Virus record (IMG/VR): IMGVR_UViG_3300031510_000024
Location: 1-31,057 of that record
Direction: 5' to 3' (one strand)
From: a virus
DNA length: 31,057 nucleotides
Shown here: in pieces, positions 12,601 through 31,057 of the stretch
Layout: each line of letters begins with the position of its first letter
Position numbering within the stretch: the stretch's first letter is position 1
The notes under the pieces: generated by a model
The model's input: the letters and a program-made list of their open reading frames with translations, nothing else
Databases searched by the model: none
Told to the model about the DNA's origin: nothing
Program-made: the position numbers and the translations under genes

Positions 12601-14707
12601 AACCCGTGACAGAACCAATAACTCTGCAAATACGTGGAAACCTGGGTTGCATCAGAATACGGGGATTACTAATTATAGCGGTATGAGTTTCTCTATTAGA
12701 AGAGAGAATTTTGGTAGTGGTAACACCTTACTTTTCAGAACCAAGATGAGTACTCCCGGTACTTTATTTAGGTTTGCTACAGACCCCAACAATAGGGTGT
12801 ATGAAGTTAAATCAGGTAGTGGTGGTGAGATTAAAAGTTATACCTACACTAGGTTGACCGGACTCGGGGCTTGTATAACCCCGCAAGACTGGGGGTCTTC
12901 ACATAAAAGAACCTTCACTGTTAAGTTTGCTTGGATAGAAGATAGTGGCATTGGGCTAGATATTAATGACTTCGATCCTCGAGGTGCTTTAGCACATGAT
13001 GGAACTACCACTGCCAGTATACACATAGTGGAGCCGATGTTTAATTCATCTGAAAGCATAATAGTTGACCAGGGTAATGCCATATGGGAAACTGAACCTA
13101 AAGAAGATGTAGGGTTGGACTTGTACTACGAAGCCACCAACTCTTTACCTATGAGGTTAACTGAAGCTAATAACGAATCATTTGCCCCAGTCGGATCTGT
13201 TATAGAGATAGTTAGAGATGGCTTAGTGGTTAGCAATATAGTTGCTACGTACTTAGTAGTTAAGACCATGGTGAGAGATGTAGTATCGCTTAGAGAATCT
13301 ACCAGCACAGGTACTTATACCTTCAATGTGTTGGTAGGTGATACCATTAGGTTTATACATGCGGATGGTGCTATAACCGAGTCTACCGTTGTGGATTACA
13401 TGACTACCTATGACACAGAGGATAATGATTACGAAATATCTGCATCACAAACGCCCTATCTTAGATTGGATAACGAACTGTATAAGTATAAAACTCAATT
13501 ACCTTGGTACAATTGCTACTCATTTGGTAATGGCTTAGAGTCTGATAGAATAAGAGATGACTATAACGCACCAACAATAGACAATGGAGTAAAAGTATCC
13601 ACAACTCTAGATGACTATGGGCAAGAGAGGAGATCAAGTGGTTTAATATATTCTGGTATATACAACTCAACTAGCGGGACTAACAACCTCAATGAGTTTA
13701 ACATGGCAGAGAGCATCACTAAGGACCTTAATCCTACTTATGGATCTATACAAGCATTAAAAAGTAGAGACACAAATGTAGTAGCTTTCTGTGAAGACAA
13801 AGTGTTGAAGATACTAGCTAACAAGGATGCATTATTTAACGCTGATGGAAGTTCTAATGTGACGGCTTCTTCAAACGTATTAGGAGATGCGTCTGGTTTT
13901 GCCGGCGATTATGGAATATCTAAAAACCCAGAATCACTAGCGTTAGATAACTTCAGGATGTATTTTTCAGATAAACAAAGAGGAGTTATAATTAGGTTAT
14001 CTCAAGATGGGTTAACACCTGTTTCAGCCGCAGGTATGACTACTTGGTTTAGGGACAACTTAAAAGAGACCCACGAAATCGTTGGTACTTATGATGAAAT
14101 AAAAGGGGAGTATAATGCCACCTTGAGGTATGTACCAGCAGTCTACGATAGACATAGTGTGCTGGAACCTAAAACTCCAGATACCACGGTTTCCTTTAGC
14201 GAGAAAACTAAAGGTTGGACCAGCTTCAAGTCATTCACACCTCAAACAGGTTTGTCCATAAATGGGGAATACTTAACAGCCAAAGACGGTGGATTGTGGT
14301 CTCACTACGACAAGACTACACCAGCCAATTTAATATATGGAGTCCATTACGATTCCACTATCGATGTGCTATTTAATGACAACCCTGGTAGTGTTAAGAG
14401 CTTTGGCTCTATGAACTACGAAGGTACACAAGCTAAAGTATCAGTAAATACTGGTGATGGAGAATATTATAACCTAGTAGAAAAGAAGGGTTGGCACGTA
14501 ACCTCTTTCACTACGGACCTACAAGAAGGGCTTGTACCTGAGTTTATAAATAAAGAAGGAAAGTGGTTTAACCATATATTTGGTGAGACGACTACATTGA
14601 AAAACCTAGATACCAGCGAGTTCTCTGTACAAGGTATAGGTACGGTAACCTCAGTGGTGCCACCAGAACAAACAGAGTTCACAATAACAATTCAAAACGG
14701 AGAATAA
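9683..14707 (+). CDS. Large tail muzzle / tail-stabilisation protein
   Basis: This 1674-residue beta-rich protein is probably the tail nozzle or muzzle that closes the DNA channel. The N-terminus (FQAGKMNKDLDERLVPQGEY) matches the start typical of P22-stabilisation-like and crAss-like muzzle proteins. Other recognisable patches are RYKYQDGEFSSFAPWSE near 440 and KLGIVFGDKQGRETPV near 625. Residues about 1274-1500 form a strongly patterned block beginning PWYNCYSFGNG and including GLIYSGIYNS, EDKVLKILANKDALF and YGISKNPES, which I recall as the best conserved part of the crAss-like family. Residues about 905-1010 are an Asn/Gly/Ser-rich insertion that could be a surface loop or domain. There is no signal peptide or membrane helix. 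Its stop TAA shares one base with the next ATG (TAATG), so termination-reinitiation coupling is likely. The family-level call is good; the exact structural role is inferred. Confidence 0.75.
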   Translation: MSEIKHTFQAGKMNKDLDERLVPQGEYRDALNIEVRTSDGGDAGTAQTSYGTIERLASTELELTNSWAPYSTTMVGSVADEKADKAYFFLASPPVWTKEELFTNADITELKIFKDLIIQYDTVTKSTKPVVVDIFEVHNTHSNLGSPAGNVAGFTSLTLTAGVTNTLRPGMAVQAYNTGGTSLMSVSTDTFLAGDPIIRKVVGNIIYFDRVVATALTTALYWKFIAPKTLNFSRNTVTEKKSITGINIIDNFLFWTDNFSEPKKINIDRCIAGTPSFSLHSNLMITSPESALDTLVNINTIDIGNHGDLKEEHITVIRRAPRVAPKLLMSSSKRSGDITGSCTQVFADGNGPLLASTLVSNVSISGGVFQVGDVLILENADTLGELSVIRCVVEVADTALGLYQLKIESIPTTLVNTQEVWTIELEQPKPIFELKLGRFGYRYKYQDGEFSSFAPWSELAFLPGEFDYVPKKGYNLGMVNNLRDLKITDFVVEDSLRPDDVISVDILYKDTSSPNVYVVKTIERGKDPEWDESAATGSSGILEITSDMIHKALPSSQLLRAWDNVPRKAVAQEVTGNRVLYGNYLQNYNVPNPVAVIQRRVTKAHGDNLLPEASVKSIRKYKLGIVFGDKQGRETPVISAGAVTKDGHITTSDVNVEKKYAHETNKLSAQQDWNSPIEGWMDYYKYYIKETTNEYYNLAMDRWYDSEDGNIWLSFQSADRNKLDEDTYIILKNRHGSQDPVLDEARYKILAIENEAPDYIKTTAKILGSLNISEISSISTTNVIEFPGTAWDAAFSDIKFKGIGWARIKGVASGQVMYSAWARISRLNDSAHEVTLVDPIGESADMTSTLGTSGVEYRLEIKDAVVENRPEFDGKYFVKIYKDGVLTSNVLGESGDSITYITKDTFKHAYIQTAGTNPAVNGPFSGNSWTSGYGFNSGNVFNNFAKCGHDTESKDFWAGHGSNGFSSPWYLDRTRDRTNNSANTWKPGLHQNTGITNYSGMSFSIRRENFGSGNTLLFRTKMSTPGTLFRFATDPNNRVYEVKSGSGGEIKSYTYTRLTGLGACITPQDWGSSHKRTFTVKFAWIEDSGIGLDINDFDPRGALAHDGTTTASIHIVEPMFNSSESIIVDQGNAIWETEPKEDVGLDLYYEATNSLPMRLTEANNESFAPVGSVIEIVRDGLVVSNIVATYLVVKTMVRDVVSLRESTSTGTYTFNVLVGDTIRFIHADGAITESTVVDYMTTYDTEDNDYEISASQTPYLRLDNELYKYKTQLPWYNCYSFGNGLESDRIRDDYNAPTIDNGVKVSTTLDDYGQERRSSGLIYSGIYNSTSGTNNLNEFNMAESITKDLNPTYGSIQALKSRDTNVVAFCEDKVLKILANKDALFNADGSSNVTASSNVLGDASGFAGDYGISKNPESLALDNFRMYFSDKQRGVIIRLSQDGLTPVSAAGMTTWFRDNLKETHEIVGTYDEIKGEYNATLRYVPAVYDRHSVLEPKTPDTTVSFSEKTKGWTSFKSFTPQTGLSINGEYLTAKDGGLWSHYDKTTPANLIYGVHYDSTIDVLFNDNPGSVKSFGSMNYEGTQAKVSVNTGDGEYYNLVEKKGWHVTSFTTDLQEGLVPEFINKEGKWFNHIFGETTTLKNLDTSEFSVQGIGTVTSVVPPEQTEFTITIQNGE

Positions 14708-19176: not shown

Positions 19177-22100
19177 ATGGTAGAATACTTATTAGACGGA
19201 GAGTCTTTATGGACCTCAATTGAGAATGAAGAAGCTTTCAAGGAAGCTAACCCAGAGGCAACATTAGCCCCTGCTAAAGAAGAAGTTAAAACCCCCGCTA
19301 AGGAGGTAAAGATGGATGGCGATGCAAAGAGTGTGGATGCGGAGTCGAAAACAACAGACACTACTCCAGGGAGTACGGATTCAGATTCGGAACCTACTTC
19401 CTTGGCTTCAGGAAAGCATGATTGGCTTAACTACAACACTAGACAAGGTGTTAGTAATAAGCCTTTCTTTGATTCTAAGGAAGAGGTTGCTGTAGTCCAG
19501 TTAAAGGAGAAGTATCCTGGATTTAAGTTTGAAGAGAGTAACAGTATGAGCTTAGGCTTCAATGTTGTTACTATAACTGGACCTAATGGAGCTAAGAAAG
19601 AGATTGAGTTTAACGTGGGTGGTAGTCAGATGAAGCCTGAGATAGTTGAGAGTCACTATGAGCAAGCTTATAATGACTTAACTAGTTTCATAGACACTAA
19701 CTCTACGAGTGAGACTGATGCAGCTCATATCAAGGCTAGTAAAGCAAGGATTGAAGAATACAAGAAGTACAATGAGAACATGAAGTACACTCCTGAGCAA
19801 GAGATTGCAGCGCAGGAAGAGTATAGTAGTGAGGATTTGTTTAAGGAATACGAGGAAGAGGTTACTGCCTATCATGGCAGCGGAATGGATGGTAAGTATG
19901 CACCTAAAATGCCATCGACCACTAAGACGATTAAACCATACGAAGAAGAGTTAGAACAAGCTAAAGCTGCTTTAATAAGAAGTGGTAACGAAGAGCCTAG
20001 TTTAGAGGAAGTAGAAGCTAGAGCTAGAAAGATATTAGTCAATAATGATCTGGATTCTATAATAAAATCTAATACAGAGAACTTACTCGAGACTATGGAA
20101 GGTGTACAGACCGGTTATGACGCTATCAGTCCGCTTAGAGCACTTAACTTATCATCTAACCCTATACCTAGACAGAAGTTAGCTTTAGCAGCTAAGGAGT
20201 TTGAGGTTGAATACAATGCCAAGCTGGACATGTTAGAGGTGGGTATGTATGAACTAAGAGAGAATGGTGAAGCTGAGAGCTTAACATCAACTGTCGCTAA
20301 GTTTGAGGACGAAGACTATGAGTTTGATATTATAGAAGGGGAGGAAGTTGTTAAGTTAAACAATGGAAAGATTGTACCCGCTAGAATAGTCAATGAACAT
20401 ATTAAAGCTGCAGAAGCTTTTAATGATAGGATAGAGAAGGTTAAAACTATACAAGGAGATGTAGTAGCTAACTCACACAACATAGAATCAACTAACGCAC
20501 AGTTAGATTTACTAAGCAGGAGTTACAACAGTTGGGAAGAAAGGATTGTAGAAACTGGTGTTGGCTTAGCTGAGATGGGGGCTGCAACTCTATATGGTTT
20601 AAGTAGGTTTTCTGGTGGACAAGACGATATGGCTAATGAAGCTTTCGCTAGCTTTAGAGGTCATGCACAGTCAGTGCGAGACTCTTATGCTAAAGACGTA
20701 GAGTTCCACGATGCCTTCAGTTCTATAAGTAACTTTGGTACCTTTGCTGGTCAAGAGTTATCTAATCAAATACCTGTGTTTGTCGCGTTGGCAACACCAG
20801 GAGGGATGGGGGTTATTGGAGCTCAATCCTTTGGTAATAGGTACGGTGATATGTACAACGAAGAACAAGGACCTAACCCTAAGAAGACCTCTCAAATGGA
20901 GAAGTGGTTTAGTAGTGCTGGGTTCGCAGCAACAGAAGTGTTGTTCGAGAGCTTAACTACCTTACCATTAATGCGTAATGCTAAGAAGGCATTTTTAAAT
21001 AATCCAGGAGCTAATCAATTGTTTGGTGATGGAATAAAATCTTATTTCAAGAACAATGCCGCTAGGTCATTAGTGTTCGAACCTCTAAGTGAAGGTGTAT
21101 CAGAAGGCTTAACATCGTTAAGTCAAAACCTAATAAGCGGAGCACCACTGACCCAAGGGTTAGATCACGCTGTGTTTTCTGGTTTAATGTTCGGTACTAC
21201 ACTTAGTACAACACCGTTCATGAAGGGGTTATACGTATCTAGCTTTTCTGACTTTGAAACCAAGCAGGTTGTTAGAGGTAGGATCAGTGAGATGCAAGAG
21301 CTTGATAAGTTCAACAACAGGATACAGAGAGGCTTAGATAAGAGAGGTAAATCTGGTCTGGGTGATGCTCAAGATATTAAAGATAATCAAGCTAAGATAC
21401 AGGAGCTACAAAAAGCTAATGAAGTTGATTACGCTGAGATAGAAGCTAAGGTTAAAACACTGACACCTAAAGCTGCTAAGTCTTTTTTCGAAGCTCAAAG
21501 TAGGTTGGAAAGTTTAAGATTAGAAGCTGCTAGAATAATAGGTATTGAGGCGATGCCTGAGAATATCAAAGAGACTAAGTTAGCTAATATAAAAGCCGAG
21601 TTTGACGCTACGCAACAATCTATAGACAGCTTCAAGGCTAGCGATACCTTCAATAATAATTGGACTCTATTTCAAGGTAACAAGAAAAACAAGAGTGAAA
21701 TTGATAGGATAAACAAGTTAGCTGTAGCTCAGGTTAAATCCCAAGGCGGCGATACTAGTAGTAGTAACGTAAGTGAAGTAGCTAGGGTTATATACAATAA
21801 AGAAGCTATAAACAAAGATATAAACAAGAAGAAATCTAATAACAAACTAAATAACTCCTTAACTTCTCACGAGACAGTGGGGGAAACTGTTGACTACCTA
21901 ACGAAAGATGCTGAAGCTAAGATCAAAGCTTTAGATACTAAAGAAGCTGATGGTGCTAACAAGAGAGCCATAGATAAGATAAACACCGAACTAAAAGAAG
22001 CTGTTGAAGCTGTCGAGAACGGTGCTCATGGATTTATGCATGTGAATTCCAAGGGTCAAAAAACAGCCGTTGTCAATGTAGATAACATGGCTAAAGCTGA

Positions 22101-25100
22101 TAGGTTGGAGACTCGTACACATGAACTACAACACGTTTTATTCACTGATGCAATAGGGTATGACTCTAAGGCATACAAAGGTTTATCGGATCAGATACTA
22201 TCCTGGACAAAAGAGAATAACTCAGATGTGTTTAAAAGGATACTAGCAAACGCTGAACGTAGGTCTGATGGTAACTTAAAAGAAGAGGAAGTTGTAGCAG
22301 TATTCTTTGAGGAGGTTGCAGCTGGTAATATAAACCTAAATAAGAAAAGGAACTCCACGTTCGCTGGAATGTTAGGTCATTTGATTGGTGTAGGAACTAA
22401 GAAATCTATAGACGTAGATATGGATCTTGCCGGGGAGACTGACGCTATAAAGTTCCTAGTGAACTTAGCTGGGAGAGTCAAGAATGGTAGTCTAACCCTT
22501 GCTGACTTAAAGAAAGTTAAGAGTAACAAGATAATAAAGGAAGCTAAAAAATCTAACAGTAAGGACAGTAAGGCTGCTACTACATTCTCTAATGAGAACA
22601 CTGACACCGCTAACTCCATAAAGATCAAGAAGTTATACGAGCCAATACTAACATTGCAAGAGAAGGCAAATCCTACAGAGGCTGATCTAAAAATGATCGA
22701 TAGAATGAAGGCTGATATATCTGGTCAGATAGCAATGGAGTATAGAGGAATGGCTGAGAAGATTTTCAGTAGAACCTTAGCTAACGCTATCACAGAGGAT
22801 ATTAGACAGGACTTATTGTCTAATAAGGAGGATATTATTGCTGGGATATTATACGATCCTGGGACAGAGACAGCTAAAGCTAGGACAGTACTTGGTTTGG
22901 TAATGGACTTCGACCCCAACAAGCACGCTCATAAGAACGTAGCTGCATACATCAACCAATTCCTACCTGAGAGATCTAAAGAGATCTTTGCTAAGAGAGG
23001 TATTGAAGAGACTTCTACTAAGTCTATGACTGATGAGAAGGTTGCGATGGAAGCTGAGAATGTTGTAGACAATGATGTAGATTCTAGAGATGATAGTAAA
23101 CCTAAGAGAAAAGGTATATTATTATCTGATCGTTTTGATGTTAGAGATAAAATGGATGCAGCAGCTAAGGACTTTGTTACGGCAAACAATCTAGCTGGTA
23201 AATCTTATAAAGAAACACCTAGCATAGCTACAGACGTTGTAGGTGAATTAATGGGTATCAGCCCAGCTAAGATACTTAACAATGCTAACTTAACTAAAGG
23301 TGAATTAGCATCAGCTCAAATGTTCATAGCTAAACACCCCGAGTTACTTATAGCAGCTCTACCCGAGGGATCAAACTCTGAAGGTAAGGCTACTGGTGTT
23401 CAGAAAGTTCTACTAGAAGGTTTGTATAATAAGAAATCTATTAGAGCTAAGACTGGAGCTGGCTTGAATGTACAGGTTAAGAAACCTAACATTAAGAGAT
23501 CTGACTTCATAGAAAGATTTGGTATTGTAGATGGTAAGAGATCTAGAGATGATAGAAACACTTCATCTAGAGTGTTAGCTCTAGCTAAGCAATTGGATAG
23601 AACTATATCCAACCAATCTATTAGAGAGCAATTAATCGAGCAAGGTGAAGGTAAAGGCTTGGTGCACGCATTAGCTGATGGTAAATCCCCGGTTATGTTC
23701 AGTAGAGATGGCGACGTTACTAACCACGTAGACCCTAAGCTAGCGATAGGTGTTAGTGTATCTAATAAAGATATATTCTTAAATAGATTCGATCAAGTAC
23801 TAGAAGGTATACCTAACGGGTTTGATCCAACGGATTTAAAAGCTACTAGAGCAAGGCTTAAAGAAGTATACAAAGGTACTAGAATAACTACTCAAGAAAT
23901 CAATGCCATAGCTAAGAACATTAAGAAGTACACTGATAGGTATTCTGATGTTAAGACTAAAACCTCTCACACTAAAATTGGGGATGTAGGTCAAGAAGCT
24001 TACATGAGAGCGTTCCTACTTCAAGCAGTTGAGGAAGATGTGGCTGATAGATCTTTGATTCAATTGTTTGGTAGGTTACTACCTAATGGTTTCACTAACA
24101 CTACTAACTTGTATACTAAAGATAGGATTGTTAGAAACAGAGAGACATTTATATCTTTTGTTAGGCATGCAAAGAATGAGCTGGGCTGGAGTGATAAGAA
24201 GATACTTAGATTAATATACACTCAGTACAAGGGGATGTATACTGGTGCAGGTAAGATTGGAGATGGTTCTCTCATAAAAGATGCTGATGGAAACATCATT
24301 GAGGATCCAAATTGGAATGATACTAAACCAGGGAAGTTCGATGGTAATAAGTGGAAGAGAAACGAAGATGGTAGCTTAAAGCTGGACAAGGCCGGTAAAC
24401 CTGTAACGCAAGACTTTAGAGGTCAAGTGTTCGGTCATGCTAACGATTTGATTGATGAGTTATCTAACATCGAAGGTTTTGCAGACATTAAAGGTAAGAC
24501 CTGGAATGAAATTGCTAAGAGTAGAGGTTTTGACAAGAACACTTTTGCTGAGAAATCTAAAGCAGCAATGATGGACTTAGATTATAAGGGTCGATTAGCT
24601 CAAGCTGTTGAAGCTAGGGAAGCTGTTCAAGGTTTATCTGAATTCTATTTATCTAGAATTAAAGATGGTACTGTTGATCACGGGGATTTACTAATGCTGG
24701 GTAAAATGCTTGGCTCTGGTATGTCTTCACCTATGAAGAGAGCTGCAAACGTAGCGTGGATCGGAGTTGGTGTAGAAAGCATCCCGTTAGATAAGTTAGG
24801 TCAAGAAACTGAGTATGAACACATGATACCAACTAACAAGATGATGTTGGAGATGTTCAAGCATTTAGTTAACGACGGTGTATTACCTGAGGGATTCTGG
24901 AATAACTACGAAGTAGCTATCATACCTAAGGTAATGGATAAGGGTTTAATCCAGAACGGACTTAGAGACTTCTTACCAATGTCATTACAAGTGGAAGACC
25001 ATATCGGTAGTCCAAAGTTTGAAGCGTGGAGAAGATATTATAACAAACAAACCCTAGGTGGTAAAGGTCAAGTAGCTATTAAAAGCATCGACCCCGCTAA

Positions 25101-28100
25101 GAAAGGTTTAGTAATTGGAGAGGATTTTGTTAAGGCTAGCAATATGTTAGTGGCGCAGGATAAGTCTCACGAAGCTCAACAGATACTAGGTAAAGTAGTA
25201 GTAAATTACTCTAAAGAAGTTAAAGGTGCTAGCATCTGGGACTTCGATGATACTTTAGCTCGAACTAAGTCAGGTGTTAGGTATAAGCTACCTAACCCGA
25301 GTGGTAAACCCCAACCAGGTAGAAAAGTAATCTTCATGGCTGGTGGAGCAGGTTCAGGTAAGTCTGGAGTGTTAAAGCAGTTAGGGCTTGAAGGTCAAGG
25401 GTTTAAGACAGTGAACCAGGATATATCATTAGAATGGTTGAAGAAGAATGCTGGGTTACCAACTGATATGAGGGATTTAACACCTGAGCAATTAAGCGAA
25501 GTTAATAAGTTAGCTGGTGAAGCTAGACGTATTGCTAAACGTAAGCAAGGTAAGTTCAAGGGTAATGGCGATGGTGTTGTTATTGATGGCACTGGCGGTT
25601 CTTTGAATGTAATGAAGAAGAAGGTTCAGGAGTTTAAAGATGCTGGGTATGATGTTCAGATGGTATTCGTTGAGACATCTTTAGATGTAGCACAAGATAG
25701 AAATGCTAATAGAAAAGAGAGATCATTAGGTAGTATCATAGTAGCACAGAACCACAAGGCGGTTCAAGGCAATAAGGAAGGTTTCAAAGAGTTATTCGGT
25801 AACAACTTTGCTGAAGTTAATACAGACAAGCTAGCTCAAGGTGAAGCTATGCCTAGTGCATTTGCTGATAAGGTTAATAAGTTTACTAGTGGTTATATTA
25901 ACGCTAGGCTAGATGCAGGACAATTCGCTCACGTTGGAGCTGACCTACTAGCACAAGGTGCTACGTTTGACTTCTCTGAATTCAGTCTAGTTAAAGACGG
26001 ATCACAAGGACCATTATTCCAGGAAGCTCTATCAAGAGCTAAGAAGTATGGAACTAAAGATCAGTTTGTATTAACAGCTAGACCTATGGCTGCTGCACCA
26101 CACATACAGCAGTTCTTAAAGGAACAAGGTCTAGATATACCAATTGAGAATATAACTGGATTAGAGAGCTCCTCTGCTGATTCTAAGGCATTGTGGATTG
26201 CTGAGAAGATTGGAGAGGGTTACAATGATATATACTTTGCTGACGATCACTTAGCTAATGTTAATGCTGTAAGCAAGATGCTATCTCAGTATGATGTTAA
26301 AGGTAAAGTTGTACAAGCTAAAGTGTTATTTAGTAAAGATGCTGAAGGACATTTCAACGAGATACTTGAGAGAGTAACAGGAGTTAAAGAGTACAAAGAG
26401 TTCTCTGGAGCTGCAGCAAGGCTTAGAGGCTCTAACAAGGGTAGGAACAAGTTCTTTGTTCCGCCATCAGCCGAGGATTTCAAAGGTTTAATATATTCAT
26501 TCCTTGGTAAAGGTAAGGATGGTGATGCTGATATGGCTTGGTTCAAAAAGCATTTATTAGATCCTTTCTCTAGAGGTATTAAAGCATTGAATGCTACTAA
26601 GCAGTTAATGTCCAATGAGTATAAAGCTTTACGTAAACAATTCCCTAGTGTAGTTAAAGGTCTGAACAAAAAGGTTGGAGACACTGACTTTACTTTAGAC
26701 GCCGCGATTAGAGTTTACCTATGGGATGCTAGTGGTTTTGAAGTACCTGGTTTGTCTAACACAGACAAGGCTGCACTACTTAATCACATGGCTAACGATC
26801 CAGAAGCTAGAGCTTTTGCTGATGTGTTAGGTAAGATCTCTAGAAGGAAAGATGGTTACATCAAACCAGGAGAGTATTGGGTTGTCGAGACTATTGCTGC
26901 TGATCTACACAACGTAGTAACTAAAGTTAACAGAGCTGAGTTCTTAGCTGAATGGAATGAGAATGTAGGACTAGTATTCTCTGAGAAAAACCTCAACAAG
27001 ATTGAAGCTGTATATGGTACAGTATTTAGAGAGGCTTTAGAGAATATCTTATTTAGAATGCGCACTGGCTCTAACAGAGCTACAGGACAAGATAAGTTAG
27101 TATCTAAGTTCACTGATTGGATCAACGGTTCTGTTGGTGCTGTAATGTTCTTTAACACTAGGTCAGCAGTGCTACAAACATTATCAGTGGTTAACTTCAT
27201 TGATTGGAAGGATAACAACCTATTCAAAGCAGCAGGTGCATTCGCTAATCAGAAACAATACTGGACTGATTTTGGTACACTATTTAATTCTGATATGTTA
27301 AAGCAGCGTAGAGCTGGTATGGAGATCGATGTCTCAATCTCAGAGCTAACCGAAGCTGTTAACGGCGCTAATGATAAAGCTAAAGCTGCTCTTAGATATT
27401 TACTACAGATTGGTTTCACACCAACACAGGTAGCAGATAGTTTTGCTATTGCTGCAGGTGGTTCTACTTTCTACAGAAACAAAGTTAAGAAGTACGTTAA
27501 AGAAGGGATGAGTAAGGAAGATGCTGAATCAAAGGCATTCAATGACTTCCAGGAGATAGCAGAGGAAACTCAGCAGTCATCTCGTCCAGATATGATCTCT
27601 CAGCAACAATCAGGAGTACTAGGTAGAATCATACTAGCTTGGCAGAACACACCGATGCAGTATACAAGGTTAACTAAGAAGGCTATATCTGATCTTGCAA
27701 ATGGTAGGGGAGATTGGAGATCTCACGTTTCTAGAATACTTTACTATGGCTTAATACAGAACGTTATATTTGGTTCACTGCAAAGTGGTTTAGCCTTTAT
27801 GATGTTCAGTGGAGAAGACGAAGAAGAGGAGAAACAGAAGAAGGAATTGAGAGTAGCTAACGGAGCTTTAGATACTATACTTAGAGGTACAGGTATCTAC
27901 GGAGCTATGGCAGCGACTCTTAAGAATACAATCATGAAGTACTATGAACAGAAAGAGAAGGGTTACGGTAGACAAGATTTAAGTGCTATTGGTTTAGAGC
28001 TTATTAGTTTATCACCACCTATATCTAGTAAGATCAGAAAGATTGTTAGTGCTGCTAAGACTTACCTATACAACGAAGATGTGATAGATAAGATGAGTGC

Positions 28101-28665
28101 AAACATTGACAACCCGATGTATAATGTAGTAGGTTCTATCATTGAAGGTGCTACCAATATACCTCTGAATAGAGTTGTTAAGAAATTAAACAATTTAGAT
28201 GAGGCTTTAAATGGTGGTCACGCTTTATGGCAACGTGTTGCATTAGTCTTAGGTTGGGATAAATGGAGTCTCGGAACTAAAGATGCTGATGTTGAAAAAG
28301 CAAGAGCTGAAGTCAAGGAAGATAAAGCTGAAGCTGCAGTAGAACGTAGGGAGGTTAAGAAAGCCGAGAACAAAAAGATCAAGGAGGACGAAGCTAAAGC
28401 AGTTGAAGCAAAGAAGAAAGCCTCTGGGGTTAAAGAGGTTAGATGTTCTGGTACTAAATCAAACGGTGAAAGATGTAGCCTAACAGTCGAGACTAAAGCT
28501 AAAACAGTCAAGTGTTCTTACCACAAATCGTACGGACCTAAAGAGGCCAGTGATACGGATGGTGATGGAGTGAAAGAGTACCAATGTACTTCTAAGACTG
28601 GATCTGGGAACAGGTGTAAGAATAGAACAGAGAATACTAACAAGAAATGTTATGCTCATCAATAG
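19177..28665 (+). CDS. Giant polyvalent virion protein: metalloprotease, HAD with nested kinase, zinc modules
   Basis: This 3162-residue protein is probably packaged inside the capsid and ejected with the DNA; its place after two smaller proteins mirrors T7 gp16. Residues 1-110 are acidic and low-complexity. Hydrophobic patches at about 531-555 and 665-690 may enter a membrane, and coiled coil follows (about 700-880). HELQH at 982-986 marks a zincin metalloprotease. A conserved-looking region (about 1200-2000) includes an EHMIP segment (1881-1885) of unknown meaning. HAD motif DFDDTLA (2022-2028) is followed by P-loop GGAGSGKS (2056-2063), a zeta-toxin-like kinase, and then the rest of the HAD domain (to about 2385). 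A long helical region with a hydrophobic stretch near 2855-2880 leads to two zinc-binding modules (3090-3161). The reading frame is unbroken for 9.5 kb. Polyvalent proteins of this style are known from phages and conjugative elements. Substrates, and whether it is processed into parts, are unknown. Confidence 0.8.
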   Translation: MVEYLLDGESLWTSIENEEAFKEANPEATLAPAKEEVKTPAKEVKMDGDAKSVDAESKTTDTTPGSTDSDSEPTSLASGKHDWLNYNTRQGVSNKPFFDSKEEVAVVQLKEKYPGFKFEESNSMSLGFNVVTITGPNGAKKEIEFNVGGSQMKPEIVESHYEQAYNDLTSFIDTNSTSETDAAHIKASKARIEEYKKYNENMKYTPEQEIAAQEEYSSEDLFKEYEEEVTAYHGSGMDGKYAPKMPSTTKTIKPYEEELEQAKAALIRSGNEEPSLEEVEARARKILVNNDLDSIIKSNTENLLETMEGVQTGYDAISPLRALNLSSNPIPRQKLALAAKEFEVEYNAKLDMLEVGMYELRENGEAESLTSTVAKFEDEDYEFDIIEGEEVVKLNNGKIVPARIVNEHIKAAEAFNDRIEKVKTIQGDVVANSHNIESTNAQLDLLSRSYNSWEERIVETGVGLAEMGAATLYGLSRFSGGQDDMANEAFASFRGHAQSVRDSYAKDVEFHDAFSSISNFGTFAGQELSNQIPVFVALATPGGMGVIGAQSFGNRYGDMYNEEQGPNPKKTSQMEKWFSSAGFAATEVLFESLTTLPLMRNAKKAFLNNPGANQLFGDGIKSYFKNNAARSLVFEPLSEGVSEGLTSLSQNLISGAPLTQGLDHAVFSGLMFGTTLSTTPFMKGLYVSSFSDFETKQVVRGRISEMQELDKFNNRIQRGLDKRGKSGLGDAQDIKDNQAKIQELQKANEVDYAEIEAKVKTLTPKAAKSFFEAQSRLESLRLEAARIIGIEAMPENIKETKLANIKAEFDATQQSIDSFKASDTFNNNWTLFQGNKKNKSEIDRINKLAVAQVKSQGGDTSSSNVSEVARVIYNKEAINKDINKKKSNNKLNNSLTSHETVGETVDYLTKDAEAKIKALDTKEADGANKRAIDKINTELKEAVEAVENGAHGFMHVNSKGQKTAVVNVDNMAKADRLETRTHELQHVLFTDAIGYDSKAYKGLSDQILSWTKENNSDVFKRILANAERRSDGNLKEEEVVAVFFEEVAAGNINLNKKRNSTFAGMLGHLIGVGTKKSIDVDMDLAGETDAIKFLVNLAGRVKNGSLTLADLKKVKSNKIIKEAKKSNSKDSKAATTFSNENTDTANSIKIKKLYEPILTLQEKANPTEADLKMIDRMKADISGQIAMEYRGMAEKIFSRTLANAITEDIRQDLLSNKEDIIAGILYDPGTETAKARTVLGLVMDFDPNKHAHKNVAAYINQFLPERSKEIFAKRGIEETSTKSMTDEKVAMEAENVVDNDVDSRDDSKPKRKGILLSDRFDVRDKMDAAAKDFVTANNLAGKSYKETPSIATDVVGELMGISPAKILNNANLTKGELASAQMFIAKHPELLIAALPEGSNSEGKATGVQKVLLEGLYNKKSIRAKTGAGLNVQVKKPNIKRSDFIERFGIVDGKRSRDDRNTSSRVLALAKQLDRTISNQSIREQLIEQGEGKGLVHALADGKSPVMFSRDGDVTNHVDPKLAIGVSVSNKDIFLNRFDQVLEGIPNGFDPTDLKATRARLKEVYKGTRITTQEINAIAKNIKKYTDRYSDVKTKTSHTKIGDVGQEAYMRAFLLQAVEEDVADRSLIQLFGRLLPNGFTNTTNLYTKDRIVRNRETFISFVRHAKNELGWSDKKILRLIYTQYKGMYTGAGKIGDGSLIKDADGNIIEDPNWNDTKPGKFDGNKWKRNEDGSLKLDKAGKPVTQDFRGQVFGHANDLIDELSNIEGFADIKGKTWNEIAKSRGFDKNTFAEKSKAAMMDLDYKGRLAQAVEAREAVQGLSEFYLSRIKDGTVDHGDLLMLGKMLGSGMSSPMKRAANVAWIGVGVESIPLDKLGQETEYEHMIPTNKMMLEMFKHLVNDGVLPEGFWNNYEVAIIPKVMDKGLIQNGLRDFLPMSLQVEDHIGSPKFEAWRRYYNKQTLGGKGQVAIKSIDPAKKGLVIGEDFVKASNMLVAQDKSHEAQQILGKVVVNYSKEVKGASIWDFDDTLARTKSGVRYKLPNPSGKPQPGRKVIFMAGGAGSGKSGVLKQLGLEGQGFKTVNQDISLEWLKKNAGLPTDMRDLTPEQLSEVNKLAGEARRIAKRKQGKFKGNGDGVVIDGTGGSLNVMKKKVQEFKDAGYDVQMVFVETSLDVAQDRNANRKERSLGSIIVAQNHKAVQGNKEGFKELFGNNFAEVNTDKLAQGEAMPSAFADKVNKFTSGYINARLDAGQFAHVGADLLAQGATFDFSEFSLVKDGSQGPLFQEALSRAKKYGTKDQFVLTARPMAAAPHIQQFLKEQGLDIPIENITGLESSSADSKALWIAEKIGEGYNDIYFADDHLANVNAVSKMLSQYDVKGKVVQAKVLFSKDAEGHFNEILERVTGVKEYKEFSGAAARLRGSNKGRNKFFVPPSAEDFKGLIYSFLGKGKDGDADMAWFKKHLLDPFSRGIKALNATKQLMSNEYKALRKQFPSVVKGLNKKVGDTDFTLDAAIRVYLWDASGFEVPGLSNTDKAALLNHMANDPEARAFADVLGKISRRKDGYIKPGEYWVVETIAADLHNVVTKVNRAEFLAEWNENVGLVFSEKNLNKIEAVYGTVFREALENILFRMRTGSNRATGQDKLVSKFTDWINGSVGAVMFFNTRSAVLQTLSVVNFIDWKDNNLFKAAGAFANQKQYWTDFGTLFNSDMLKQRRAGMEIDVSISELTEAVNGANDKAKAALRYLLQIGFTPTQVADSFAIAAGGSTFYRNKVKKYVKEGMSKEDAESKAFNDFQEIAEETQQSSRPDMISQQQSGVLGRIILAWQNTPMQYTRLTKKAISDLANGRGDWRSHVSRILYYGLIQNVIFGSLQSGLAFMMFSGEDEEEEKQKKELRVANGALDTILRGTGIYGAMAATLKNTIMKYYEQKEKGYGRQDLSAIGLELISLSPPISSKIRKIVSAAKTYLYNEDVIDKMSANIDNPMYNVVGSIIEGATNIPLNRVVKKLNNLDEALNGGHALWQRVALVLGWDKWSLGTKDADVEKARAEVKEDKAEAAVERREVKKAENKKIKEDEAKAVEAKKKASGVKEVRCSGTKSNGERCSLTVETKAKTVKCSYHKSYGPKEASDTDGDGVKEYQCTSKTGSGNRCKNRTENTNKKCYAHQ
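21994..22326 (+). other. Domain in the giant protein: zincin-type metalloprotease
   Basis: Residues about 940-1050 of the 3162-residue protein. A strand with TAVVNVDNM precedes the helix carrying H982, E983 and H986 (HELQH), the zinc-binding and catalytic signature. A downstream helix rich in Glu (E1036-E1038 and E1045-E1046, around VVAVFFEEV) could provide the third ligand. The arrangement resembles metallopeptidase domains described in polyvalent proteins. Possible targets are the giant itself, other virion proteins or a host protein; nothing in the sequence decides this. Confidence 0.7.
25219..26331 (+). other. Domain in the giant protein: HAD phosphatase interrupted by a P-loop kinase
   Basis: Residues about 2015-2385. 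HAD motif I (D2022, D2024 in WDFDDTLA) comes first. The inserted kinase (about 2045-2235) has Walker A GGAGSGKS (2056-2063) and VNQDIS with D2082, placed like the catalytic Asp of zeta-toxin-like kinases. VVIDGTGG follows at 2134-2141, and arginines R2175, R2179 and R2182 form a LID-like cluster. The HAD fold then resumes with FDFSEF (2264-2269), motif II LTARP (2299-2303, T2300), motif III Lys2337 and motif IV FADDH (2354-2358, D2356 and D2357). All catalytic residues of both folds appear present. Confidence 0.78.
28444..28659 (+). other. Domain in the giant protein: twin C-terminal zinc-binding modules
   Basis: The last 73 residues hold two tandem copies of one pattern: C3090-x9-C3100-x12-C3113-x2-H3116 and C3137-x9-C3147-x10-C3158-x2-H3161. 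Both contain Lys and Ser-Asn-Gly or Gly-Ser-Gly-Asn before the second Cys. A DTDGDG linker (3126-3131) that resembles a calcium loop separates them. Small CCCH modules of this type, with a Gly-x-x-Cys turn, occur in phage and bacterial proteins of unknown role. Metal binding is a reasonable inference; the partner (DNA, RNA or protein) is not known. Confidence 0.65.
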
Positions 28666-29030: not shown

Positions 29031-31057
29031 ATGTTAGGTCTAGGATTAAGTTTAACTAAGATAGGTGGTAGCCTACTTAGTATAGTCAAGGCAGGGTTGA
29101 AACTTTGGTATAAAGCAGACACAACTCAATCACCTCTAGGAGAGGAGGGGATTACTGATGGTAGTTTCGCTTCAGGTCCGGATTTATTCGACCCAGGTAA
29201 GGGTACGTTTGACAACGGGGTTGGTAGTTGGAAAGAGTATCATGCAAACACCATAGAAACTGTAGGTTCTCAATTGAAGGTTACCAATAATGGTAACAGC
29301 GATGGGGCTTATTTGTATTTCAGAGATTCAAAGGATTTAAGTGATGATTTAATTATTGGTAAAACATATGAAGTCACTTTTGACGCTAGGAAGGATAGCG
29401 GTGCTAATCCAACCAGAGCCGAGGTGTTTACTGGTTTGGCTGGTGATTATTTACACAGTGCTCCCTTCACTAATGAAATGGCTCAGTATAAGGTTTACTT
29501 TACGGCTAGGAGTGTTAATTATGCTTCTATCAAGTTTGATGCCATGAACCCTGGTGCCAGTGTCTTCCTAGATAACATATCAATAAAGCAAACAAACATT
29601 AACGATAGCTGGCTTATACAAAACCCTAGCTCTTCACAAACGGTTGAGTTCCGCTCTGATGGGGTTTTCGTTGATTACGTTCATGACGCAGCTGGCACAT
29701 CAACTGGTTCAACTGGTATAAACCAACCTGCACTAACTGTTGGTAGGAAATATAAGATAGAAGTGGATTTTGGTACTATAACAGGTCAAGGAAAGATACA
29801 AGCCGGGGGTAAAGGTCATACCATAACTTCCACTAGTAGTGATAAAACTGTAACAGTTATTTTAGATAATTGGCTGGATACTCAAGAGCATGTGTATATA
29901 GTAAGAAAGACTGATCTAGAATCATTCTCAGCTTTAATCAAGAGGGTATCAGTAAAAGAAATAACAAACTCCGTTCGTGACTACTCTAGTAGTGCTAACA
30001 ATGGTATGCTATACTCCGGTAAGGCTTTGGATTTTGATGGTAGTGATGACTACTTAAGCTTTGGTTCTGACTTAAATGAGAATAGCACTGTGTGGTCTCT
30101 AGCTTTTTGGTTAGGGGATTACACTCAAGGTGGTAACAATCTAGATAACTACGATTGGATAATTGGTGGTGGAACTACTGCTAATATTGGCTTAAAGAAA
30201 AGTGCAGAAGGTATATTCTATAGACAAACATCGGGTGTAGATGCAAATGCTTACTGGGAGTTTGGTCATGTACTAGATAGCTTTACTGGATACAAGAGGT
30301 TCGTGTTCACCTCTGATGGGATTATCATATCTCTATATATAGACGGAATGTTTATAAGCTCTGTGAAACCAGAATCTACTAACCTAATGGTTGAGAGGTT
30401 AATGTCCGGGTACAATACTGACGACTACATCGTAAATGGTAAGTGTTCTGATTTCCAGCTTTACAGTAAGACTTGGACACCAACAGATGTAGAGTATGAC
30501 TGGGAAAACCCAGATAAAGACGTGTTTGACGATACAGTTAGAGCTGAAGTTTTAGGGCCTGAAAATATAATCAATGGAGACTTCTCAACTAGCGATTTAT
30601 CTGGTTGGAACTTCAACGTAGCTCCGACAACAGGTACTCGTAGTATAGTTAACGGGAAGTTAGAGTTTTATTCTGGGGATGCCACACCTGAGTACCCAGT
30701 TGGTAACTCTAACATATTGGGTAACTATAATTTAGTGGGTAAAAAGGGTGATGTATACAGGGTTGAGGCACACTTTTCAGACTTCGTTGGTAATACTAGT
30801 GCGTCCCTTAGAGGGAACGGTATTGTAGCAGGTAATATGGTGTTTTCCACTTCCTATAGTAAGGTTGTATACTGGACCGCTGATGCAGACTTCAATTACT
30901 TTGGTTTAAATTCTGGGAGTCACTCAGACAGACTCAAACTAGATAATTTTTCTATAAAGAAAGTTTTAAAGCACAAGTCAGAAATTTCAGTTACAGACTG
31001 TAAAGCTTTGTACAGACTGAACGAAGGAGCTGGTGATAGAATTTATAACGCAGCACC
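29031..31057 (+). CDS. Modular tail fibre / receptor-binding protein, 3' end cut by window edge
   Basis: This frame opens at the ATG at 29031 and has no stop to the end of the window, giving at least 675 residues. The N-terminus (MLGLGLSLTKIGGSLLSIVK) is amphipathic and may anchor the fibre. A carbohydrate-binding-type jelly-roll follows (about 58-187, starting FDNGVGSW and ending VFLDNISIK). A second beta unit spans about 195-310 (ending IKRVSVKEI). A LamG/concanavalin-like domain spans about 312-490 (KALDFDGSDDYLSFG, then WSLAFWL and LYIDGMFISSV). Another jelly-roll follows (about 511-645, NIINGDFSTSDLSGWNF to LDNFSIKKV), and the last residues (CKALYRLNEGAGD) look like the start of a second LamG-type unit. 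Such modules bind surface sugars, so host recognition is the likely role. Fibre function is inferred from domain types and position next to the small tail protein. Confidence 0.72.
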   Translation, partial: MLGLGLSLTKIGGSLLSIVKAGLKLWYKADTTQSPLGEEGITDGSFASGPDLFDPGKGTFDNGVGSWKEYHANTIETVGSQLKVTNNGNSDGAYLYFRDSKDLSDDLIIGKTYEVTFDARKDSGANPTRAEVFTGLAGDYLHSAPFTNEMAQYKVYFTARSVNYASIKFDAMNPGASVFLDNISIKQTNINDSWLIQNPSSSQTVEFRSDGVFVDYVHDAAGTSTGSTGINQPALTVGRKYKIEVDFGTITGQGKIQAGGKGHTITSTSSDKTVTVILDNWLDTQEHVYIVRKTDLESFSALIKRVSVKEITNSVRDYSSSANNGMLYSGKALDFDGSDDYLSFGSDLNENSTVWSLAFWLGDYTQGGNNLDNYDWIIGGGTTANIGLKKSAEGIFYRQTSGVDANAYWEFGHVLDSFTGYKRFVFTSDGIIISLYIDGMFISSVKPESTNLMVERLMSGYNTDDYIVNGKCSDFQLYSKTWTPTDVEYDWENPDKDVFDDTVRAEVLGPENIINGDFSTSDLSGWNFNVAPTTGTRSIVNGKLEFYSGDATPEYPVGNSNILGNYNLVGKKGDVYRVEAHFSDFVGNTSASLRGNGIVAGNMVFSTSYSKVVYWTADADFNYFGLNSGSHSDRLKLDNFSIKKVLKHKSEISVTDCKALYRLNEGAGDRIYNAA

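Follow-up and report, generated by a model that had tools for sequence, protein, structure and literature searches.

The giant gene and its surroundings

The window, by which we mean the whole 31,057-base virus record analysed here, contains a reading frame that remains open over 3162 amino acids (19177-28665; + strand, as are all the domains and motifs located within it below). The gene order runs from the terminase through the portal, several structural genes, a 1674-aa structural protein and short tail genes to this giant ORF, which is the last member of the structural gene block. A comparable order is found in Flavobacterium Elemovirus, where the last gene is syntenic with the window giant and encodes a 3694-aa protein annotated "structural protein". 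The N-terminal part of the window giant also resembles a protein of Tenacibaculum phage Gundel_1 that bears the same annotation (E = 1.3e-14). No isolate phage matched the giant gene in a near-identity search. The closest relative of the window terminase is MW202828, followed by those of the Flavobacterium elemo, Cellulophaga and Tenacibaculum podoviruses. A crAss-like affiliation of the window was considered and rejected; its sole support was a match below cut-off between the 1674-aa protein (14327-14581) and the C-terminal domain of the crAss phage muzzle protein (1.5e-5). Two further observations concern the end of the block. The C-terminus of the giant (28444-28662) carries two Cys/His-rich repeats, one of the form C-x9-C-x12-C-x2-H and the other similar to it, perhaps zinc knuckles, and a second large ORF of at least 675 aa lies downstream (29031-31055), runs past the end of the window and has no match among the Pfam or PHROG families.

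About a thousand residues before the domains that interest us, the giant carries a zincin-like HExxH motif (HELQH, residues 982-986, 22120-22134). An HExxH motif is present in all 39 distinct giant relatives, some 880-1220 residues N-terminal of the HAD phosphatase domain described below in nearly all of them. Phage polyvalent proteins are encoded next to virion genes, commonly bear peptidases and are probably packaged and injected (Iyer et al. 2017, PMC5512222). Judged by its sequence, the window giant has the features of this group that were looked for: it is a multidomain giant encoded beside virion genes and contains HExxH. The sequence-only reading had described it as a virion-type protein, a description with which its place at the end of the structural block, the Elemovirus synteny, the Gundel_1 homology and the ubiquitous HExxH all agree. 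We consider it a probable polyvalent or ejection protein and, in our judgement, it is likely to be carried in the virion.

The HAD domain and the kinase within it

The HAD domain was recognized with a profile built exclusively from 30 relatives that contain no kinase. This profile matches the window protein in two pieces (total E = 1.2e-73). The first (model positions 2-32, residues 2010-2040, 25204-25296) comprises the motif I strand, the squiggle and the first flap strand; the second (model positions 34-194, residues 2241-2401, 25897-26379, domain E = 1.6e-66) comprises the second flap strand, a small cap region and the core. Since the two pieces adjoin in the model but lie 200 residues apart in the protein, they reflect an insertion and not a chance set of motifs. 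The four HAD motifs (DxDx(T/V), T/S, K/R and DD) are all present and in order: motif I is DFDDTLA (2022-2028, 25240-25260), motif II is LTARP (2299-2303, 26071-26085), motif III is Lys2337 (26185-26187) and motif IV is FADDH (2354-2358, 26236-26250). Asp2022, Asp2024, Thr2026, Thr2300, Arg2302, Lys2337, Asp2356 and Asp2357 are invariant among 16 nested sequences and 21 kinase-free relatives. In the window protein Pfam detects the kinase alone, as the HAD is split by the insert. The kinase-free relatives match DUF2608 in 29 cases out of 30, a family that we take to belong to the HAD clan, and the HAD family PF12710 in nine (best E = 0.018). The HAD profile had no match in the PDB at E = 0.1, whereas a Foldseek search with a HAD-only model returned weak but coherent matches to known HADs (L-2-haloacid dehalogenase, the HAD domain of Lem4, and Ceg4). 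By these features the outer domain is a HAD phosphatase whose motif I and motifs II-IV share one predicted core.

The inserted segment (residues ~2040-2239, 25294-25893) was located by structure prediction. The AlphaFold2 model, computed from a 62-row alignment, is confident (pLDDT 91.9, pTM 0.80) and places the kinase between strands 2033-2039 and 2240-2246. A model of L015, which has no kinase, shows the two corresponding strands connected by a turn of five residues. These strands form the HAD flap hairpin, the site of C1-cap insertion, so that in the model the kinase occupies the C1-cap site at the tip of this hairpin. A scan of IMG/VR for relatives yielded 50 loci. The matching stretch almost always belongs to a giant ORF, and contig ends cut a few of the loci. 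The relatives exist in two forms, with 277 residues between motifs I and II when the kinase is present and 77-80 when it is absent. The insert of 200 residues is found in 17 complete nested homologues and is missing from 35 natural relatives.

Since the window comes from one metagenomic contig, the arrangement could in principle stem from a chance juxtaposition of motifs or from an assembly artifact. Nevertheless, the 17 complete nested copies lie on independent contigs, share an identical junction and mostly have 56-66% identity to the window sequence (47% in one case), none of 500 shuffled window proteins matched the HAD profile, and the predicted fold is confident. The independent homologues refute the artifact explanation, and we regard the nesting of a complete P-loop kinase within one HAD as practically certain. 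The sequence-only reading had proposed precisely this architecture, with related fusions in other marine phages; the motifs that it quoted were all found at the residues given, and both the structure prediction and the nested copies uphold it.

The kinase domain is covered by a purpose-built profile over residues 2047-2255 (25315-25941), the C-terminal end of which overlaps the second HAD piece because the profile takes in some flank. Pfam matches above the cut-offs span residues 2046-2196 (AAA_33, 1.4e-9; Zeta_toxin, 4.5e-9). The Walker A motif is GGAGSGKS (2056-2063, 25342-25365), in which Lys2062 is invariant and Ser2063 is replaced by Gly in six of the 16 nested sequences. The putative general base Asp2082, in the context VNQD (25420-25422), is invariant in the 16 nested and 25 free-standing kinases. 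A conserved DGTG (2137-2140, 25585-25596; Asp2137 and Thr2139 invariant) follows a core strand, and the LID arginines 2175, 2179 and 2182 (25699-25722) are invariant in the nested sequences. The catalytic residues of both folds that had been reported from the sequence are thus present, and those checked are invariant among the 16 nested sequences with the single exception of Ser2063.

Structure and sequence rank the relatives of this kinase differently. When PDB structures were ranked by their fold similarity to the nested model, the polynucleotide kinase of Clostridium thermocellum was the top match (E = 3.5e-8, TMt 0.73); zeta toxin, T4 Pnkp and Pnkp1 came next. A phmmer search of the domain against the PDB gave a sole, weak match to PezT (E = 0.13), and profiles were therefore used instead; among these, zeta toxin is the best PDB sequence match (3.8e-7) and scores above T4 Pnk (1.7e-5). 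The tested features (Walker A, catalytic Asp, LID arginines and fold) identify the inner domain as a P-loop kinase of the PNK/zeta clade. The earlier label "zeta-toxin-like" holds as far as this clade is concerned, but since the best fold match is a bacterial polynucleotide kinase it represents one of two readings.

One scenario follows the zeta side of this clade. At entry, the kinase could phosphorylate a cell-wall precursor such as UDP-GlcNAc, and the HAD could limit the damage by dephosphorylating that sugar or a related one. Besides the rank of zeta toxin among the sequence matches, all 30 kinases examined match the Zeta_toxin family, and Iyer et al. 2017 (PMC5512222), who noted zeta-like kinases in polyvalent proteins as well as in MuF fusions, proposed that they have a role in the cell wall. 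The top match in the viral structure library, an "uncultured virus" protein with 57% identity, is also labelled UDP-N-acetylglucosamine kinase, although this name is automatic; relatives are therefore already present in UniProt under such automatic names. Yet polynucleotide kinase is the closest match by fold and the E-G-T segment of zeta and PezT is replaced by D-G-T-G, which makes a sugar-nucleotide enzyme seem rather unlikely.

Nested, tandem and separate forms

The history of the insertion was explored in a HAD-only tree of 61 rows, obtained from a single tree search, in which the free-standing HADs lie across the root branch and long branches limit the detail. The 17 nested rows require three gains or losses, at least two of which are forced by well-supported branches. 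A diverged nested copy (L083) clusters with two kinase-free rows, apart from the other nested rows, and a clade of 22 rows, 21 of them kinase-free, falls within the nested grade. This pattern indicates that the kinase was both inserted and lost; the nested form would have been gained and lost in evolution, perhaps more than once. The contig of the diverged copy has a peculiarity of its own, since both of its strands encode a kinase-bearing giant ORF of ~3500 aa (L223:2595-12947 and L224:3-9848), which may represent a duplicated gene or a chimeric assembly.

Where both domains are present, they are maintained under purifying selection. Among the least diverged pairs, dN/dS is ~0.09-0.21 in the kinase and 0.06-0.33 in the HAD core, and the median pN/pS is 0.345 and 0.412, respectively, so that the kinase is constrained no less strictly than the HAD. 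These values bear on the possibility that the kinase serves chiefly as a cap or scaffold that shapes the access to the HAD site, its own catalysis being weak or lost in some lineages. Such a role would fit an insertion located precisely at the C1-cap site, the replacement of the P-loop Ser by Gly in six of the 16 nested sequences and the loss of the kinase in a whole clade. Nevertheless, the remaining catalytic residues of the kinase are all invariant and selection on it is at least as strong as on the HAD, and we hold a mere scaffold to be quite improbable.

The same two families also occur in other arrangements. In one locus (L064:5400-6281), an intact HAD and, in tandem behind it, the same kinase lie within a giant ORF that is interrupted by the contig end. 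A free-standing kinase gene of ~225 aa is common in viral contigs, with at least 492 confirmed relatives that include Pelagibacter phage HTVC008M and the Methylophilales phages Melnitz. The free-standing HAD has at least 416 relatives, none of them among the 50,697 records of isolate phages. Of 30 contigs with a free-standing HAD, 14 also encode the kinase, and the two genes lie less than 6 kb apart in 16 of 80 loci, from about five lineages. The converse association is weak, as this HAD was found on only three of 30 contigs with a free-standing kinase, and no kinase was found elsewhere on 30 kinase-free podovirus contigs, which are fragments. In larger phages the HAD and the kinase are encoded by separate genes, which often share a contig. 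The genome contigs searched yielded two HAD-only contigs in metagenome bins and no nested bacterial protein. That these families coexist in nested, tandem and separate form speaks for a common pathway.

Several neighbourhoods of the separate genes deserve mention. In L078 (1637-5935), a 2H phosphoesterase (PF13563, 3.2e-13; Acb1, 2.4e-5) adjoins the kinase and HAD genes, and several ORFs start with comparable short sequences (MIKLMDLLKEG, MVKLIDILVEN), so that the cluster may encode a set of packaged proteins. An ORF between the separate HAD and kinase in L178 and L185 resembles by eye an APS-kinase-like P-loop protein; L178 has a nucleotidyltransferase-like ORF in the same interval, and glycosyltransferase-like ORFs lie upstream, both likewise recognized by eye. 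In Agrobacterium phage Atu_ph07 (L054:2185-4557), the domain N-terminal of the kinase looks, by eye, like an ADP-ribosyltransferase.

The N-termini of the free-standing kinases (L062-L137, L052 and L053) are informative about their possible destination. They begin with MKTFxELQE|G, MKTYKELQE|G or similar sequences, in which L-x-E|G lies just before the kinase core. The T4 internal proteins IPII and IPIII have a close N-terminus in the T4 genome (MKTYQEFIAE|A); in T4 this capsid-targeting sequence directs internal proteins into the head, and the gp21 protease trims them there (PMC9958956). The capsid-targeting pattern, a short N-terminal MK(T)(F/Y)..(L/I)xE| ahead of the mature protein, was found in 25 of 50 distinct kinases vs 23 of 1045 other ORFs from the same loci, a difference whose significance is inflated by sequence kinship. 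The resemblance to T4 internal proteins suggests that the free-standing kinases may be packaged in the capsid. A strict T4-type tag was ruled out for the free-standing HADs, of which 1/41 has the pattern; a looser pattern is found in 22/41, vs 24%. Atu_ph07 has the same T-E-G site, but inside a longer protein. A repeated "FSK"-like linker was considered as a processing site and dropped as inconsistent.

Possible functions and comparison with known systems

The leading reading of the function is that the module, that is, the HAD with its inserted kinase, works like a polynucleotide kinase-phosphatase (PNKP). We infer delivery in the virion, catalysis by both domains, a cap role for the kinase and a nucleic-acid substrate, and the following scenario may be outlined. 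The giant would be a polyvalent protein, probably ejected, from a podovirus whose relatives are phages of marine Flavobacteriia, and the module would enter the cell with the DNA. Since the kinase sits at the C1-cap site, it would overhang the phosphatase site from the tip of the flap hairpin and would thus be a cap that is an enzyme too. On nucleic-acid ends, the kinase would add a 5' phosphate and the HAD would remove a 3' phosphate, and the outcome would be the end-healing half of an RNA or DNA repair that counters host nucleases.

Several observations are consistent with such end editing. A bacterial polynucleotide kinase heads the fold ranking of the predicted structure, with T4 Pnkp and Pnkp1 also high. 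Both halves match PHROGs labelled polynucleotide kinase: phrog_505 in 30/30 kinases (best 1.3e-13) and phrog_415 in 25/30 kinase-free HADs (best 4.8e-8). The frequent presence of the kinase on contigs with a free-standing HAD and the L064 tandem point in the same direction, as do the 2H phosphoesterase of the L078 cluster and a more distant kinase relative in Staphylococcus phage SA11 that is fused to an RNA ligase. In addition, jumbo phages have been reported to pair PNK and HAD for RNA repair (PMC7824862). Delivery with the virion would agree with the order of the structural genes, with the HExxH of all 39 giants and with the T4-like capsid-targeting N-termini of the free-standing kinases. 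Other data argue against it. The nucleic-acid-binding Arg of T4 Pnk, three residues past the catalytic Asp (NRDDYR, i.e. DxxR), is Leu in all 16 nested sequences and Tyr, Phe or Leu in the 25 free-standing kinases. Zeta toxin outscores T4 Pnk in the sequence profiles, free-standing kinase contigs seldom carry this HAD, and, despite its PHROG label, the HAD does not align to the T4 PseT phosphatase past motif I. An RNA ligase was found on 5/26 contigs, none of them a podovirus fragment, and a 2H phosphoesterase on 2/26, which rules out both as constant partners. Weighing these points, we favor the editing of phosphates on nucleic-acid ends after virion delivery as a tentative hypothesis, to which we give slightly less than an even chance.

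Alternatively, the kinase and the HAD could convert nucleotide, NAD or ADP-ribose signals of the host immunity. The 2H phosphoesterase of the L078 cluster matches the anti-CBASS protein Acb1 as well, the ADP-ribosyltransferase-like domain precedes the Atu_ph07 kinase, and systems of this kind are present in jumbo phages (PMC7824862). Nonetheless, the scarcity of the 2H phosphoesterase among the contigs and the lack of anything in the window that ties the module to a signal pathway make an anti-defence chemistry unlikely. In a wider formulation, the kinase and the HAD would be a portable, virion-delivered phosphate-editing pair: separate internal proteins in T4-like phages and nested in the giant of flavobacterial-type podoviruses, where the kinase would cap the HAD and pass substrate between the sites, so as to reverse host signals or the damage caused by host nucleases within minutes of the onset of infection. 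We consider this generalization rather unlikely.

Among the known systems, the polynucleotide kinase-phosphatases (T4 PseT/Pnkp, bacterial Pnkp1 and the jumbo-phage PNK-HAD proteins) resemble the module in joining a P-loop kinase of the same clade and a HAD on one chain, a likeness to which the fold and PHROG matches add. Yet in T4 PseT the kinase is N-terminal to the HAD, whereas in the window it lies inside it, and the HAD, its PHROG label apart, shows no specific likeness to the PNKP phosphatase. Because the T4 Pnk Arg was tested and found absent, and because the domain order differs, the module is not classed as a PNKP. The zeta and PezT toxin kinases have in common with the window kinase the Walker A motif, the catalytic Asp, the LID arginines and a Zeta_toxin match above cut-off, but they carry EGT where it has DGTG and belong to toxin-antitoxin pairs; no such pair was seen for the window kinase, and its fold is closer to Pnk. 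The HAD itself compares with the C1-capped phosphatases, in which an insertion likewise occupies the flap hairpin between motifs I and II. To our knowledge, no HAD is known with a complete P-loop kinase as the insert at this site, and a literature search for nested kinase-HAD proteins returned nothing relevant. Finally, the polyvalent proteins are, like the window giant, large, multidomain, encoded beside virion genes and endowed with HExxH, and zeta-like kinases have already been noted among them, but the main text describing them mentions neither a phosphatase nor a nested kinase, both of which the window giant has (PMC5512222).

The architecture thus combines a PNKP-like pairing, a HAD cap insertion and a polyvalent protein. 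Kinase-phosphatase pairs on one chain and giant polyvalent phage proteins were already known, but a whole P-loop kinase threaded into the cap site of a HAD is an architecture that we have not found described. As relatives exist in nature both with the insert and without it, what the kinase contributes to the phosphatase can be tested directly. Should the homologues indeed carry capsid-targeting sequences, they would point to an as yet unassigned class of phosphate-editing enzymes that are injected by marine phages, among them those of Pelagibacter and Methylophilales.
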